A stretch of DNA of 40,327 nucleotides from Williamsia sp. (GTDB taxonomy: Bacteria > Actinomycetota > Actinomycetes > Mycobacteriales > Mycobacteriaceae): assembly GCF_016462415.1 (NCBI RefSeq), contig NZ_JAEMTF010000035.1, positions 1 through 40,327 on the forward strand. Direction: 5' to 3'. The position numbers were made by a program, and so were the translations under genes. Positions 31,240 through 38,246 of the stretch are shown in pieces (the first letter of the stretch is position 1; every line of letters begins with the position of its first letter). Under the pieces are notes generated by a model that saw only the letters and a list, made by a program, of their open reading frames with translations, made no database searches and had not been told where the DNA came from.

Positions 31240-32832
31240 ATGCCCGACTGGTCGTACACACCCCTGGAGCCGATCGCGTCGGCTGTCCTGGGAAAGAGGC
31301 GGACACATCGACTCGCGCTCGGCTTCCTCGCCGCGCTGGTGAGGTCGGGCGGGCGACACTGGATCCCAGTCGTCTTCGATCATCCCCGCGTGCCCGACAG
31401 TGTCCGGTACCGTCTCGGCGCACAGGTTCCGGTGTCCGCGGCACGAGACGCCATCACGGTCCTCCCGGTCCAGGGCGCGACGGTGGTCCAGATCCACGGC
31501 GTGACGCTCTCCGATGTGCCCGAGGTGCGCAAGGCCGCGGCCGACCGTCGATGCCGCGTTGTCGCGGTCTGCGACTCACCGGAAACCGTTTCTGCTGTAT
31601 CACCTTTCGTCGACACCGCACGGGTGGGTGCCGATCCTGCGGAGGTCGTCGTGGATCGTCCCGATGTGCGATCGACGGCCGAGGAGCTGTCTGATCCGCG
31701 ACGAGTCGTTCTGACGACGACAGGACTGCTGACCAGGTCGGGACCCGGTTACTTCAACCGGGTCCTCGAGGCCCGGGACGCAGGGCCGGCCGTCGATGAC
31801 GAGATCGACGGGGCACGCACGGATCCGAGCGCCGCCGAACGGCCGAAACCGTTACGCGTGACCGCCTGGCCGGCGTGGGTGTGGGCGATGATCGTCGGCG
31901 TCGGGCTCATCGTCGCCGGGATCGGGGCCGCGGTGATCACACTGGGGCCGGTGCTCCTCGACTACGACAAGGACTATCTGGGACTGACCATCTCGGATCT
32001 CAACCGTGTGGACACCCATCTCGTCGGTTTCCTCCAACACGATCGCATCACGATGGCCGGCAACATGATCGGCCTGGGGACCCTGTACTGCGGGCTCGCA
32101 TGGGGCGGGATCCGACGTGGCCACCGATGGGCACGCAACGCGCTGTTGCTGTCGGGACTCATCGCCTTCGGGACGTGGCTGTACTTCCTCGGGACCGGAT
32201 TCGTGGAACCGCTGCACACGACCGTGGTCGTGGTCTTGTTCCCCCTCCTGGTGATCGCTGTCGTGCGCGCACCCACCCTGGACATCCGCACACGCGTCGC
32301 CGACGGTCCCGAGCGCGAACGGGCGGCCGCGATGTGGGCGCAACTGATGATGATCGGCGTCGGTGGCGGACTGGCCGTGGCCGGTCTCGTCATCTCGACG
32401 GTGGGTCTCACCGCGGTCTTCGTCCCCACCGATCTCGGCTACCTCGGAACGGACGCCGATACGCTTCGGGGCGCCGACCAGCACCTCCTGCCGTTCATCG
32501 CGCACGACCGCGCCGGATTCGGCGGAGCCCTCGTCGGCTCGGGCCTGGCGGTTCTCCTCATCTCCCTGTGGGGGTGGCGACGAGGTGAGAGGTGGGTGTG
32601 GTGGTCCCTGCTGATCGGCTGTGTGTCGGGCACGGTTCCGGCGCTGGCCGTACACCTGGACATCGGCTACACCACCGTGAGCCATCTCCTGCCGCTCTAC
32701 GTGTTGATGCTCGTGGTCACCATCGCGCTGACGATCTCACGACCGTTCCTGACCGCGCGGTCGCCGGATCAGCTCACGACATCCTTGCGGCCGAACCACC
32801 ACCACGCGAAGCCGAACAACACCGACGAGTAG
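31240..32832 (+). CDS. Large membrane protein with degenerate DHODH-like N-terminus and duplicated C-terminal module
   Basis: 530 residues. Residues 1-205 are soluble. The start (MPDWSYTPLEPIASAVLGKR, then RTHRLALGFLAALV) resembles the N-terminal helix of class-2 dihydroorotate dehydrogenases, and VVQIHGVTL resembles an early barrel strand, but the FMN and orotate residues are missing. From about 210, two copies of a four-segment membrane unit follow: SDLNRVDTHLVGFLQHDR with IRRGHRWARNALLLSG, and DADTLRGADQHLLPFIAHDR with WRRGERWVWWSLLIG. Function unknown. The final 64 bases overlap the convergent ABC permease gene. No ribosome site is seen, so coupling to the DinB gene is likely. Confidence 0.8.
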   Translation: MPDWSYTPLEPIASAVLGKRRTHRLALGFLAALVRSGGRHWIPVVFDHPRVPDSVRYRLGAQVPVSAARDAITVLPVQGATVVQIHGVTLSDVPEVRKAAADRRCRVVAVCDSPETVSAVSPFVDTARVGADPAEVVVDRPDVRSTAEELSDPRRVVLTTTGLLTRSGPGYFNRVLEARDAGPAVDDEIDGARTDPSAAERPKPLRVTAWPAWVWAMIVGVGLIVAGIGAAVITLGPVLLDYDKDYLGLTISDLNRVDTHLVGFLQHDRITMAGNMIGLGTLYCGLAWGGIRRGHRWARNALLLSGLIAFGTWLYFLGTGFVEPLHTTVVVVLFPLLVIAVVRAPTLDIRTRVADGPERERAAAMWAQLMMIGVGGGLAVAGLVISTVGLTAVFVPTDLGYLGTDADTLRGADQHLLPFIAHDRAGFGGALVGSGLAVLLISLWGWRRGERWVWWSLLIGCVSGTVPALAVHLDIGYTTVSHLLPLYVLMLVVTIALTISRPFLTARSPDQLTTSLRPNHHHAKPNNTDE

Positions 32833-33722
32833 ATCAGCGAGATACCGGCGCCGCGTGCCATGTCCTCCCAGATCACGTTCGGCCCCAACGCATCCAGCCA
32901 CGCGAACTGGTAGTGCGTCGGAAGGAACTGCCGGTACGGGTCGAGCGCGGAGATCGCGTCGAGGATGTTCGACAGGATGACGAGCATCGTCGCCCCGCCG
33001 ACCGCGCCGAGCGGGGCGTCGGTGACCACGCTCAGCAGGAACGCGAACCCGGCGATCACCAACGACTGGATCAACGTGTACCCGACGACGATCGCCAGGC
33101 GCTGCAGCGTCTCCCCGTTGGTGAACTCGCCACCCAGCGGTGACTGCGCCGGCCCCCACCCGAAGAACAGGCCACCCACCACATAGGCCCAGATCGGTAG
33201 CAGGATCAGCGCGATAGCACTCGACGCCAGCCCGATGAACAGCTTCTGCCGCAACAGATGCGACCGTCGAACCGGGATCACCAGCAGGTAGCGCAACGAC
33301 GCCCAGCCCGCATCGCTCGCCACGGTGTCGCCGCAGAACAACGCGATGAGAACGGTCAGCAGGAACGATCCGGCCGCGAACTCGGTGAACAGCGCGAAGT
33401 TCGCACCGCCCGCGGTCGCCAGACCGTACAGAGCCGAGTTCTGTCGACCGCCGCCATCCGAACCCGCTGTCGACGGATCGTCCGAGCTCAACGAGAACGC
33501 GATCGCGATGATGGGCGGCAGCACCAGCAGGAGCAATGCCGCGACCTGGGTACGGCGGCGCCGCAGCTGCCGCACCGCCTCCACGCGCAGGCTCAGGGTG
33601 CGTCCGGGCCGGAAGGTCGACGGCTGGACCGGTCCGATGCCGTCGAGCCGGTCGTGCACGCCCTTGCGCGTTGCGGCCGCACGGCCACCGGAGTCGACAC
33701 CGTCACCGATGTTCTGGGTCAT
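32769..33722 (-). CDS. ABC-2-type permease partner of the hydrolase-ABC fusion
   Basis: 317 residues. A soluble N-terminus (about 1-57) leads into six predicted membrane segments starting at VAALLLLVLPPIIAIAFSL and ending ISLIYSSVLFGFAWWWFG. The arrangement LRYLLVIPVRRSHLLRQKLF after the second segment is the typical ABC-2 coupling-helix region, the docking surface for the ATPase. The start overlaps the stop of the fusion gene (ATGA), so the two are made together. It supplies the membrane pore of an exporter or remodelling complex. The C-terminal 64 bases overlap the convergent membrane-protein gene. Confidence 0.9.
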   Translation of the reverse strand: MTQNIGDGVDSGGRAAATRKGVHDRLDGIGPVQPSTFRPGRTLSLRVEAVRQLRRRRTQVAALLLLVLPPIIAIAFSLSSDDPSTAGSDGGGRQNSALYGLATAGGANFALFTEFAAGSFLLTVLIALFCGDTVASDAGWASLRYLLVIPVRRSHLLRQKLFIGLASSAIALILLPIWAYVVGGLFFGWGPAQSPLGGEFTNGETLQRLAIVVGYTLIQSLVIAGFAFLLSVVTDAPLGAVGGATMLVILSNILDAISALDPYRQFLPTHYQFAWLDALGPNVIWEDMARGAGISLIYSSVLFGFAWWWFGRKDVVS

Positions 33723-36379
33723 CGGGACTCATCTCCGATCAGGTCGAGGAACGCCTCTTCGAGATGCCGCCGCGATTCGACGACCTCGGCGTGCACACCG
33801 GCGGCCTCGAGCACCCGCGCTGCGGCGTCGACATCGTCGACGGCCAGCGTCGATGTCGCCGCTCCGGCGAGTTCGTCCACCGAACCGGCCGTGATCAACC
33901 GGCCCTTGTGCATCACGACGACGTGGCTGCACGTCTGCTCCACCTCCGACAGCAGGTGGCTGGAGACGACGACGGTGCGGCCGGTGGCCGCGTACCGCCG
34001 CATCACCTCCCGCATCTCGGCGATCTGTGGCGGGTCGAGACCGTTGGTGGGTTCGTCGAGGATGAGCAACTCCGGCAGCCCGAGCATCGCCTGGGCGATC
34101 GCCAGGCGCTGCCGCATGCCCTGGCTGTACTTGCGGACCTTGCGATCCACCGACGCCCCGAGACCGGCGATCTCCAGTGCGGTCTCGAAGTCGGCTTCGG
34201 CGGCGGGTCGGCCGGTGGCCGCCCAGTAGAGGTCGAGGTTCTGGCGACCGGACAGGTGCGGCAGCAGTCCCGGCCCCTCGATGAACGCACCGACGCGGGC
34301 CAGCACCGACGAGCCGGCGCGCACCTCTTCCCCGAACAACCGGATGTGCCCGGACGTCGGCGAGATGAGGCCGACCATCATCCGCAGCACGGTGGTCTTG
34401 CCTGCGCCGTTGGGACCCAACAGGCCGACGACCTGGCCGGCCTCGACGCGGAACGACACGTCGTCGACCGCGCGATACGAGTCGCCGTACTCCTTGCTCA
34501 GCGACTCGACCACGATCGGAGAGACTCCCTCGCCCACCGTCGCCGCATCGGCCGGAGCCCGGCGGCGCCAGGTCGCGACGCTGATGCCGGCGATCAACAC
34601 CAGCAGCGTGATGACGCCTGCGACGGGCCAGCCCCACGGGAACGGCGTCGACTCGGCCCGCCCGGTCAGGGTGGTCAATGTCAGCGTCGGCGACTCCAGC
34701 GCCACCGAATACGTCCGCGCGTCGACCGGGAGTCGGTAGCCCAGGTCGGTCGTCGAGACGGCAACCGCCAGTCGGTGTCCGGACGCCACCGAACGGACGA
34801 CGGTGGGCAGTGCGACGGTCACCGACGTGGGCTGCCCGGGCGTGAGGCCGGTCAGCCGGACCGGGGTCACCAGGCCCGAGGGTTGGGTCCGCGTTCCGTC
34901 CGGTGCGACGTCGACCAGGGACACGAACACCGTTGCGTCCGTCGTGGTTCGCGGCGTGATCCGCAGGCGGACCGACGAGGAACCGCCGACCAGGGTGTCG
35001 GTGTCGAGTGGACTCGACACGAAGCCCGCGACCTGACCCGAGATCGCCGACAGTGCACCGGCCCCGGTTGCCGCGGCGGCCGCGCTCAGCAGACCGCCGA
35101 TGCCGGGAACGGCGGTGATGGCCGCCGGGGTGCCGCCGGCCGGAGCGTTGACGGTCTGTTCCGGGCCCTGCAGCGAGACGTCGCGCGGGCGCTGCGCATC
35201 GGCCAGGGACGGCGCCGTCAACTGGCGCGCCGACGAACGGCCGGTATCGGTCGACAGCGCCCCGTCGGCGACGTCGGCAGCGAAACCGGAGTCGGGAGTC
35301 GCTTTGTCCTGCAACACCGTCGCGAACCACGATTCGACAGACGGGGTGATGTTGCCACCCGGTTGATCGTGTCCACCGGTGCGCCACTGCATCCGGACCG
35401 GGGTGCCGGCCGCACGGATGCCGGCGGCGTTGCGGACTGCCTGATCGATCGGGAACAGCGAGTCCTGTTGTCCCTGGATGAGCAGGGTCGGGGCGGTGAT
35501 GCGACCGAGGATCGACGACGGGCTCGACGCGCGCATCAACTCCTGCAGGTTCGCGTTGGGTGCGCCGGCAGCCGCGGATGCCTGGTATGCGGCGCAGACA
35601 TCGGGCGCGAACGTGCCGCACCCGTCCGACGTCGCCATTCGCGCGGCCTGCGAGAACAGTTGGCCCGCCCACTGCGACTTGAACACGCCGGCGGAGCCCG
35701 GAGCCTCGGCACCGACGGGGAACAGTGCCTGCGACAAGTTGTTCCAGGTGATGTCGGCGGCCACGGCGTCGACCCGGCGGTCGTACCCGGCGGCCAGCAG
35801 CGCCAGCGCGCCGCCGTAGGACGAGCCCGCGACACCGACTCGCGGATCGCCGGGACCGTCGCGCTCGACCTGGGGCATCGTGGCCAGCAGATCGATGATG
35901 CGGCGGGCGTCGGCGACTTCGTAGTCGGGGTTGTCGAGGTGGATGAGCCCACCGGACGCACCGAATCCCCGCGCCGAGTAGGTGACCACGACATATCCGC
36001 GGCCCGCGAGCGTCCGTGCCTGCGCGGCCAGGTCGGCCTTCGACCCACCGAATCCGTGTGCGAGCACGACCGCCGGTGCGGGTTGGCTGCGCGGCAGGAA
36101 CACCGACGCGTCGAGACCGACCGGCTGCCCCGCCTCCGGTACGCCCGCGACCGTCATCGAACGCTCGGAGACGGTGTTGTCGTCACCGCCGGTGGTGGCG
36201 ACCACGGCGATGATCGCGGCCAGCGTGACGACGACGACCGCGGCGACGATCACCCAGAACCGTCGACCACCGCGTGGTCTGAGACTGATGCCGATGTCGA
36301 TCTCCCTCGCAGCGCCGCGCGACCCGGACGGATCGACTCCCTCGATCATGCCTGCAATCGGGTCGGGACCGGTCGACAC
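33719..36379 (-). CDS. S15/CocE-type serine hydrolase fused to ABC-transporter ATPase
   Basis: 886 residues from a GTG (alternative ATG at 36349). Order: cytoplasmic N-terminus, membrane segment at about 41-62, alpha/beta hydrolase at about 75-375, jelly-roll-like domain at about 445-560, second membrane segment at about 582-604, ABC ATPase at about 622-886. The hydrolase triad is Ser187 (GSSYGG), Asp306 (GQQDSLFP) and His337 (GGHDQPGG). Cys254 and Cys262 could form a disulfide. The ATPase has Walker A GPNGAGKT (655-662), the variant signature YSQGM (751-755), Walker B LLILDEPTNGLD and H-loop His808. The two segments place the hydrolase outside and the ATPase inside. It overlaps the permease gene, and a lipoprotein gene precedes it by 30 bases. 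Substrate unknown. Confidence 0.92.
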   Translation of the reverse strand: MSTGPDPIAGMIEGVDPSGSRGAAREIDIGISLRPRGGRRFWVIVAAVVVVTLAAIIAVVATTGGDDNTVSERSMTVAGVPEAGQPVGLDASVFLPRSQPAPAVVLAHGFGGSKADLAAQARTLAGRGYVVVTYSARGFGASGGLIHLDNPDYEVADARRIIDLLATMPQVERDGPGDPRVGVAGSSYGGALALLAAGYDRRVDAVAADITWNNLSQALFPVGAEAPGSAGVFKSQWAGQLFSQAARMATSDGCGTFAPDVCAAYQASAAAGAPNANLQELMRASSPSSILGRITAPTLLIQGQQDSLFPIDQAVRNAAGIRAAGTPVRMQWRTGGHDQPGGNITPSVESWFATVLQDKATPDSGFAADVADGALSTDTGRSSARQLTAPSLADAQRPRDVSLQGPEQTVNAPAGGTPAAITAVPGIGGLLSAAAAATGAGALSAISGQVAGFVSSPLDTDTLVGGSSSVRLRITPRTTTDATVFVSLVDVAPDGTRTQPSGLVTPVRLTGLTPGQPTSVTVALPTVVRSVASGHRLAVAVSTTDLGYRLPVDARTYSVALESPTLTLTTLTGRAESTPFPWGWPVAGVITLLVLIAGISVATWRRRAPADAATVGEGVSPIVVESLSKEYGDSYRAVDDVSFRVEAGQVVGLLGPNGAGKTTVLRMMVGLISPTSGHIRLFGEEVRAGSSVLARVGAFIEGPGLLPHLSGRQNLDLYWAATGRPAAEADFETALEIAGLGASVDRKVRKYSQGMRQRLAIAQAMLGLPELLILDEPTNGLDPPQIAEMREVMRRYAATGRTVVVSSHLLSEVEQTCSHVVVMHKGRLITAGSVDELAGAATSTLAVDDVDAAARVLEAAGVHAEVVESRRHLEEAFLDLIGDESR

Positions 36380-36409
36380 CGCAGGCGGCGGCTGTTCACG
36401 GCGCGCAGA

Positions 36410-37357
36410 TCACCGTCGACAGGTGTCGTACTCCGACCGCATCTGCTTCTGGACCGCGAGCGCCGCATCGGTGAAGTACTTCTGTGGATCCTGCTCGCCC
36501 GCCGACTCGGGATAGCCACATCCGCCGACCGTCACCGATCCCGAATCCCGCCTGTCCGTCCCCACGGCATCGGCCTGCGAGGTCCAGTTCAGATACAGAG
36601 GCCGGTCGGGTCCGGCGCCGAGGTCGTCGACGATCGATCTGAGGGTCGTCAGCGCATCGGACTCGGACGCGTCGACACCCACCGACAGTCGCGACACGTG
36701 TCCGTCCCGGATGGCCACGGCGAAGGCTCGCGCCGGCAACCGGTCGACACGGGAGGCCATGGTGCGGAAATCGTCGACCGACAGCGGCGTGGTGACATCC
36801 CAGCTGCGCTGATCCGGTGAGTCGACGGGGTAGGCCTCGATTCCCGCGGGCACCCCACCGATCGCCTCGATCGCCGTGGCCACGGCGCTTTGCGAGTCCG
36901 TTGCCTCCCTGATGTCGACGCGCGGCCCACCGGGAGCCTGGAAGACGGCCACCGATCGGGCGTCGACGCCCTTCTCCATTGCCCTGCCGATCGCGACGTC
37001 GCGCGCGGTCGGACCCGGCTGCATCTTCCCGGTGGAGCGGAGCTGGACCCGAGGCCCGAGCGAGACCGTGATGTCCACGTGGTAGCGGTCGAAGTCATCG
37101 CCCATGGTGTCGTCCATCTCGCGGACCAGGTCCACGACCTGCGCGTCGGTGGCGTCGGGCATCGACACGTCCACCGTGACCGCAGACCCACGGCTACCAC
37201 CGTGCTCGTACGAGGTCGAGGCCTCCGCGACACCCGGCACGTGACGCAACCTCGACTCCAGTGCGTCGGCTTCGACACCGCGATCCGGTGCGGAATCACA
37301 CCCGGCGAGCACGACCACCGCGATCACCGTCGACAGAAGGACGAACAGCGCTCTCAC
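36410..37357 (-). CDS. Lipoprotein upstream of the hydrolase-ABC fusion
   Basis: 315 residues from the GTG at 37357. The signal sequence (RALFVLLSTVIAVVVLAGC) ends in a lipobox with Cys20, so it is anchored outside the cytoplasmic membrane. Two or three similar alpha/beta segments follow (LESRLRHVPGVAEASTSYEH, ITVSLGPRVQLRSTGK; later IRDGHVSRLSVGVDASESDA), with no family recognised. Longer in-frame starts run through basic, low-quality sequence and are rejected. TACGCT (37364-37369, minus strand) ends six bases before the GTG, a leaderless promoter. It is the first gene of the lipoprotein-fusion-permease operon. Confidence 0.82.
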   Translation of the reverse strand: MRALFVLLSTVIAVVVLAGCDSAPDRGVEADALESRLRHVPGVAEASTSYEHGGSRGSAVTVDVSMPDATDAQVVDLVREMDDTMGDDFDRYHVDITVSLGPRVQLRSTGKMQPGPTARDVAIGRAMEKGVDARSVAVFQAPGGPRVDIREATDSQSAVATAIEAIGGVPAGIEAYPVDSPDQRSWDVTTPLSVDDFRTMASRVDRLPARAFAVAIRDGHVSRLSVGVDASESDALTTLRSIVDDLGAGPDRPLYLNWTSQADAVGTDRRDSGSVTVGGCGYPESAGEQDPQKYFTDAALAVQKQMRSEYDTCRR

Positions 37358-37397: not shown

Positions 37398-38246
37398 TCA
37401 GACGCTCCGGGCCCGATCGAGGATCGCCTCCGCCGCCGCATCGGCGGCCTGGGTGGGAATCCAGTGGTTGACGCCCTCGAGCACCACGAGTTCGTACGGT
37501 GCGCGGACCAGGTCCGCACATCCCTCCACCCCGGCGCGATCGATGAACGTGTCGCCGTCACTCCAGACCATCGTCGTCGGCACCGTGACGCGCCGGCCGA
37601 ACCGTGTGCGGTCGGTGAAGGGCAGGGCCCGGTACCAGTTGAGGCCTCCGGTCAGGGCGCCGTAGTCGACGATCTCGGTACGGAATCGCTGCACGTCCGA
37701 TGCCGTCATCCCGGCTGCGCGCAGCGAGCGGTCCATTCGGCCACCGGGCCGCGCGGCCGAGGCCTCCGGCACCCACGGCGTCTGGAAGAAGACCATGTAC
37801 CAGGATTTGAGCCCCTGACGTGTTCGAGTCGCGGCGCGGATGAAGGCGGTCGGATGGGGCACCGACAGGGCAGTCAGCGTCTTCACCATGTCCGGCCGGT
37901 CCGCGGCGAGCGACCATGCGATGTTCGCTCCCCAGTCGTGACCGACGACGTGGGCTCGACCGCCCGCAACCGTGATCAGCTCCACGATGTCGTCGACCAA
38001 CTCGCCCGAGGTGTAGTCGCGACGTCGGGGCGGCCGCGCACCGGGTGAGTAACCTCGCTGGTCCGGCGCCAGGGTCCGGAAGCCATGTGCGTGCAACAGC
38101 GGCGCGACCGCGTCCCAACACGTCGCGCGTTCGGGGAAGCCGTGCAGCAGGACCACGACCTCGCCGTCGAGCGGACCGGCGTCGAGGACGTCGAACTCGT
38201 ATCCGTTGCGGGTGAAGGACTCGATGCGATGTGTCGGAGCGCTCAC
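37398..38246 (-). CDS. Epoxide-hydrolase-like alpha/beta hydrolase
   Basis: 282 residues from a GTG overlapping the stop of the upstream dehydrogenase gene. The oxyanion motif is HGFPERATCW, the nucleophile is Asp104 in GHDWGANIAW (Asp rather than Ser, as in epoxide hydrolases and dehalogenases), and the C-terminal His is in VNHWIP. The cap region WYMVFFQTPWVPEA fits epoxide hydrolases. A GAGG seven bases upstream supports the start. It acts in the cytosol, probably on the product or precursor of the dehydrogenase. Confidence 0.92.
   Translation of the reverse strand: MSAPTHRIESFTRNGYEFDVLDAGPLDGEVVVLLHGFPERATCWDAVAPLLHAHGFRTLAPDQRGYSPGARPPRRRDYTSGELVDDIVELITVAGGRAHVVGHDWGANIAWSLAADRPDMVKTLTALSVPHPTAFIRAATRTRQGLKSWYMVFFQTPWVPEASAARPGGRMDRSLRAAGMTASDVQRFRTEIVDYGALTGGLNWYRALPFTDRTRFGRRVTVPTTMVWSDGDTFIDRAGVEGCADLVRAPYELVVLEGVNHWIPTQAADAAAEAILDRARSV

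Follow-up and report, generated by a model that had tools for sequence, protein, structure and literature searches.

Hydrolases served by ATP-binding cassette (ABC) complexes have become a recent theme with YbbAP-TesA of E. coli (2025), a type VII ABC complex that includes a periplasmic esterase (PMC12646458). Its authors suggest that the ABC part pulls hydrophobic molecules out of the membrane and hands them over to the esterase. A locus reminiscent of this arrangement lies in a stretch of 40,327 nucleotides from Williamsia sp. (assembly GCF_016462415.1, contig NZ_JAEMTF010000035.1, positions 1 to 40,327), here called the window. It is a two-gene system: one gene encodes a protein in which a serine hydrolase, predicted to be extracytoplasmic, is fused to an ABC ATPase, and the adjoining gene encodes an ABC-2 permease. 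The component families are already known. The literature searched, which excluded bioRxiv preprints and most subscription papers, does not describe the fusion; an earlier note on this DNA, made from the sequence alone, knew of no described function for it.

The likeness to YbbAP-TesA lies in the layout, an ATP-driven membrane complex proposed to hand hydrophobic molecules to an extracytoplasmic serine esterase. TesA is a separate GDSL protein and the ABC part is type VII, whereas the Williamsia enzyme is an alpha/beta-hydrolase within the ATPase chain and its permease partner is ABC-2/type V. By Pfam, the fusion has no GDSL family and the permease none of type VII (FtsX/MacB). Because the parts differ in family, the Williamsia system may be said to work like YbbAP-TesA, not to be one. 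NosDFY and the ABCG-type transporters (type V, ABC-2) share the permease fold, and NosF is among the nearer ATPases. These transporters, however, have no hydrolase, and NosDFY works with the beta-helix protein NosD, for which no family was seen in the five window neighbors scanned (genes 36410, 37398, 31240, 38246 and 29157). Hydrolases of the CocE/NonD and PaL types (Peptidase_S15 plus PepX_C) have the same catalytic fold, triad and jelly-roll but are free enzymes; the fusion has an ATPase and a pair of membrane helices in addition. The Myxococcus ABC-2 permease/M1 peptidase fusion (TC 3.A.1.145.1; PMC3924187) likewise links part of an ABC-2 exporter to a hydrolytic enzyme, although there the permease and not the ATPase bears the enzyme, which is a metallopeptidase.

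The hydrolase-ATPase fusion and its permease

The fusion is encoded by a single open reading frame with a GTG start and no internal stop codon (Table 1). Three Pfam families match it, each above its cut-off: Peptidase_S15 (residues 88-330), PepX_C (447-555) and ABC_tran (639-779). Its hydrolase part combines a Ser-Asp-His alpha/beta-hydrolase with the PepX_C jelly-roll, as in S15/CocE-type enzymes, and the triad residues follow the order usual for alpha/beta-hydrolases. In the ATPase, the Walker A, signature, Walker B and H-switch residues are all intact. The single reading frame and the Pfam domains thus bear out the earlier description of one 886-residue hydrolase-ATPase protein, and the complete triad and complete ATPase that it claimed are present and conserved across fusions.

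The permease belongs to ABC2_membrane_2 (37.5 bits against a cut-off of 27.2), and both its fold and its sequence family place it with ABC-2/type V proteins. The four-base overlap that had been noted between the two genes is an ATGA shared by the TGA of the fusion and the ATG of the permease. An in-frame permease start occurs at the same stop/start overlap in 99 of 125 fusion-permease pairs.

Table 1. Features of the fusion-permease locus and the adjoining gene, in window coordinates
Feature	Position	Strand	Description
Fusion gene	33719..36379	(-)	886 aa: first membrane helix, S15/CocE-type hydrolase, PepX_C jelly-roll, second membrane helix, ABC ATPase
First membrane helix, residues 39-64	36188..36265	(-)	Predicted, AlphaFold2 model; RPRGGRR on N-terminal side
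Alpha/beta-hydrolase (Peptidase_S15), about residues 71-360	35300..36169	(-)	Predicted extracytoplasmic; Pfam and model
Catalytic triad	Ser187 35819..35821; Asp306 35462..35464; His337 35369..35371	(-)	In hydrolase part
PepX_C jelly-roll domain, about residues 366-576	34652..35284	(-)	Pfam and model
Second membrane helix, residues 583-605	34565..34633	(-)	Predicted, model; WRRR at cytoplasmic end
ABC ATPase, residues 622-886	33722..34516	(-)	Walker A 655-663, signature 751-755, Walker B 771-776, H-switch His808
ATGA overlap	33719..33722	(-)	Four bases; fusion TGA, permease ATG
ABC-2 (type V) permease	32769..33722	(-)	317 aa; ABC2_membrane_2; near-constant fusion partner
Putative lipoprotein	36410..37357	(-)	315 aa; adjoins fusion; outside conserved system

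Proposed mode of action

The preferred reading, to which a probability of roughly 0.42 is given, is a type V pump-and-cleave complex acting outward on a hydrophobic, probably ester-bearing substrate. It builds on what the sequence itself shows: a fusion whose two enzymes both have intact catalytic residues, a permease partner, wide conservation and a predicted topology. Its precedent is YbbAP-TesA (PMC12646458), where an extracytoplasmic esterase belongs to an ABC complex. Through the two helices, the ATPase subunit would hold a serine hydrolase of the lipase/cocaine-esterase type at the outer surface of the cytoplasmic membrane, and the complex would most likely consist of two fusion chains and two permeases. 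By binding and hydrolyzing ATP, it would shift a hydrophobic or acyl-bearing substrate out of or across the membrane, the candidates being a lipid, lysolipid, glycolipid or acylated small molecule. The attached hydrolase would then cut an ester bond while the substrate emerges. Complex formation, coupling to ATP, ester over peptide chemistry and the class of substrate are what we infer here.

A more specific version is rather unlikely. It holds that the system is an ABC machine of a class of its own, that ATP-driven movement is passed by the single covalent helix from the ATPase to the extracytoplasmic lipase, that extraction and ester cleavage make up one cycle coupled to ATP, and that the arrangement arose once in Actinomycetota and was kept by some small-genome lineages. 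Within that version, such retention would point to an envelope-lipid task. More generally, hydrolase and ABC motor are here covalently joined and come from families other than those of YbbAP-TesA; many actinobacteria have the fusion, among them Streptomyces and lineages with small genomes. This makes the idea of an ABC motor feeding or driving an outer enzyme directly testable, and could reveal a lipid or envelope task.

Distribution in Actinomycetota

A survey covered 61 genomes (the source genome and 60 relatives), whose loci were fetched and checked, weaker matches in part. The full fusion was confirmed in 32 of them, at one locus per genome: in all eight genomes of the genus, in 7 of 29 other members of the family and in 17 of 24 members of the order. 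Every one of the 32 loci has hydrolase, jelly-roll and ATPase in one frame, with the permease gene adjoining, and homologues split into two separate genes were not seen in this survey. Since independent genomes carry the same single frame, an assembly or frameshift artefact is ruled out.

Named relatives come from a scan of genome contigs, of which the best 80 of 570 loci were taken. Williamsia maris (93%) comes first among these, and Nocardioides, Streptomyces, Rhodococcus, Geodermatophilus, Lentzea, Actinoplanes and metagenome-assembled genomes (MAGs) of Candidatus Nanopelagicales are listed as well; all are Actinomycetota by their record titles. The named species share the domain order at 38-93% best-segment identity. 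Within these 80 loci, 72 hold a fusion uncut by a contig end and 73 have the permease; five of the seven loci lacking it lie at contig ends (L075, L095, L096, L097 and L132), while L087 and L134 are genuine exceptions. One locus, L103, is titled as a Bifidobacterium breve MAG and carries both fusion and permease; it is possibly mislabelled.

Matches to a hydrolase/jelly-roll profile were found in 31 of 296 genomes of the phylum (E-value limit 1e-60) and in 124 of 394 genomes of the class (1e-90), counts that take in stand-alone hydrolases, domain content having been checked in the fetched loci only. A hand count gives 104 class genomes at or above 396 bits, with the source genome included and some matches cut by contig ends; below 381 bits, proteins of some 600 residues make up most of the class-genome matches, and a few are pieces of fusions. 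The seven loci fetched from other classes of the phylum (L207-L213) are all fused and all have the permease, as do three (L215-L217) and thirteen (L223-L235) further loci of the same class. Five of the latter (L223-L227) belong to genomes of 1.3-1.9 Mb in one family (f106), in which both genes are kept. Among 72,556 plasmid records, one carries the fusion (E-value 1e-90). It is annotated there only as 'alpha/beta fold hydrolase' and 'ABC transporter permease', an example of how generic database names conceal the system.

Altogether, 128 distinct fusions were collected from the phylum, 125 of them with the permease at the same locus and on the same strand. The permease had been suggested as a dedicated partner, and as a pairing this is confirmed by its adjoining position in all 32 surveyed loci and by these 125. 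A split version, with hydrolase, ATPase and permease as separate neighbors, was not found: the permease is present in none of 25 stand-alone hydrolase loci (L070-L072, L188-L206, L214, L236 and L237), several of whose contigs are short. A divergent separate ATPase gene lies near the stand-alone hydrolase of L190, and other ABC genes lie further away in L188 and L199. Two more loci, L238 and L239, resemble fusions with broken frames.

Residue conservation and descent

All 32 surveyed fusions share Ser187, Asp306, His337, Lys661, Gly754, Asp775, Glu776 and His808. An alignment of 73 rows was built from the window and 72 of the best 80 loci, the other eight being cut by a contig end or lacking the ATPase. 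Each row keeps the triad, Cys254, Cys262, Lys661, Gly754, Asp775 and Glu776, while Thr662, Tyr751 and His808 each have a single row in which the residue is different or could not be read. Loss of the triad among homologues, which would have spoken against a working hydrolase in the earlier account, was not seen among 129 aligned rows of fusions either: all 129 have Asp and His, and 128 have Ser, the remaining row being gapped.

In a tree of 157 hydrolase-plus-jelly-roll sequences, the 24 stand-alone proteins cluster together at a support of 0.999, and no fusion among the 129 falls within that cluster. Four apparently solo rows fall on the fusion side; three are cut by contig ends and the fourth is L134. 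This tree comes from one FastTree run on trimmed columns, with the short L198, L238 and L239 left out. Because the stand-alone proteins group apart from the fusions, the pattern fits a single joining event with rare loss. The 4 kb contig of L134 has no permease, and a neighboring gene on it reads, by eye, like a polysaccharide chain-length/tyrosine kinase protein.

These relationships bear on whether the fusion is a plain tether that anchors the hydrolase at the membrane and leaves it independent of the pump. Stand-alone relatives without this permease, and L134 without an ATPase, would suit such a role, but one separate clade retains fusion and permease together and a tether alone would leave the intact ATPase motifs unexplained, which makes it very unlikely.

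Membrane topology and the permease

The AlphaFold2 model of the fusion (predicted local distance difference test 85, predicted TM-score 0.65) has its two membrane helices, 39-64 and 583-605, flanking the hydrolase and jelly-roll. The alignments behind the structure models used 52 of the 73 rows for the fusion and 44 of 73 for the permease. Simple hydropathy scoring by script, with no trained predictor involved, finds a hydrophobic segment ahead of the hydrolase in 118 of 128 distinct fusions and another separating jelly-roll from ATPase in 127 of 128; the charge bias expected for an inside N-terminus occurs in 124 of the 128 and that for an inside C-terminus in 110. The conserved Cys254/Cys262 pair would fit an extracytoplasmic disulphide. 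Two stand-alone S15/PepX_C relatives (L198:5137-10218 and L200:6412-9270) carry CW_binding_2 repeats, a trait of surface proteins. Hydrophobic segments, charge bias, cysteines and cell-wall-binding relatives together support, as a prediction, the placement of hydrolase outside and ATPase inside that had been proposed.

The permease model is nearest to NosY (Z 17.2, 3.4 Å, 233 residues), followed by ABCG exporters, of which ABCG2 scores Z 16.6. With NosY of NosDFY as the nearest structure, and a single helix joining the hydrolase part to the ATPase in the model, mechanotransmission without transport has to be weighed: the role of ATPase and permease would be limited to switching or positioning the hydrolase, in the manner of FtsEX with cell-wall hydrolases, and the second membrane helix would carry the movement. 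FtsEX and MacB are described as passing movement across the membrane. Both, however, are type VII, whereas the permease here fits type V folds that include true exporters (ABCG), and the helix list of its model contains no large extracytoplasmic domain. This alternative is accordingly considered unlikely.

Nearest folds and likely chemistry

The solved structure nearest to the hydrolase part is the lipase PaL (8yzo; Z 33.9, 2.8 Å, 449 residues), followed by cocaine esterase (Z about 28). Foldseek likewise ranks PaL first and the X-Pro dipeptidyl-peptidases (PepX) at 16-17, and sequence searches also return PaL first. PaL, deposited as a lipase, is presumably the Pseudomonas alcaligenes lipase, judging from the structure title. 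That lipase is reported to hydrolyze menthyl propionate (PMC9902596). A lipase or esterase role thus suits the nearest folds better than the peptidase role implied by the S15 name. Of the peptide, ester or cell-envelope role left open in the earlier note, the ester option gains from these lipase and esterase folds and the peptide option loses.

A peptide exporter with built-in processing, in which an X-Pro-type peptidase would trim the exported peptide outside, draws on the Pfam names Peptidase_S15 and PepX_C, on below-cut-off NCBIfam matches of the ATPase to peptide-protection and peptide-export models, and on the peptide exporter PmtCD, third in the Foldseek list for the permease. It is quite improbable, given that lipase and esterase folds are closer than PepX and that PepX_N, the mark of X-Pro dipeptidyl-peptidases, is not among the 19 Pfam families found at E-values up to 0.1. 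No conserved small peptide gene was noticed in a survey that took genes of at least 90 residues only.

Several observations weigh against an outward-acting pump-and-cleave complex for lipids or esters. ABCA lipid transporters top the ATPase profile list only via two matched stretches per chain, and therefore the ATPase alone is no pointer to lipids; single-domain matches are led by Thermotoga TM0544 (1vpl) and NosF. In NCBIfam, lantibiotic-protection and DrrA models come first for the ATPase, all below cut-off. The fusion is patchy within the family, with 7 of 29 other genomes carrying it. An intact fusion of Microlunatus parietis (L087, 5893-8508) has no permease of the family in the fetched flanks, and in a Geodermatophilaceae MAG (L134:151-2202) a protein of the fusion clade has no ATPase and stops right behind the second membrane segment. 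Finally, besides the permease, no neighbor cluster recurs in more than 20 of 115 loci.

Gene neighborhood

The gene caller behind this last survey was crude, leaving out 9 of 124 sources, taking the larger genes only and grouping the permease in 79 of the 115 loci; neighbor counts are therefore lower bounds. Ten cluster representatives were identified by Pfam as TerC, a universal stress protein, UvrB, a pyridoxal phosphate (PLP) enzyme, an S9 peptidase, a glyoxalase-like protein, TetR, an aldehyde dehydrogenase, EamA and an AAA ATPase.

The TetR-family cluster, present in 6 of the 115 loci, is one of the features that would agree with a detoxification pump expelling toxic hydrophobic compounds or antibiotics and hydrolyzing them outside. 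Others are the patchy distribution, the below-cut-off ATPase matches to drrA and lantibiotic-protection models, and structural matches that include ABCG2 and a mycobacterial efflux pump. Retention in several small genomes and the lone plasmid record argue against such a pump, which is quite unlikely.

The lipoprotein gene and other genes

The gene upstream of the fusion starts with GTG at 37357 and has a visible lipobox, LAGC; its product matches no Pfam or NCBIfam family. The earlier note had counted it as part of a three-gene system, and this did not hold. It is unmatched in 31 other fusion loci of relatives (E-value limit 1e-2) and in the best 80 of 570 loci (1e-3). Across 31 whole genomes, it was found in the source genome itself, in one of seven congeners (39%, on a contig other than that of the fusion) and, weakly, in one further genome. 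As a third subunit the lipoprotein was rejected on these grounds; since it is not kept with the fusion, the system comprises two genes.

Of the PADLOC models for anti-phage defence, mad3, mad8, AriA and HEC-01A match ATPase residues 631-826 only, and the permease has no match. The closest relative of the ATPase in its own genome (C126, 44%) is paired with a different ABC-2-like permease near thiG and gives no substrate clue. The next gene upstream of the lipoprotein gene, in the same orientation, encodes an Abhydrolase_1 alpha/beta-hydrolase (37398-38246), and the 3′ end of the permease gene overlaps that of a convergent open reading frame (31240-32832, forward strand) by 64 bases (32769-32832).

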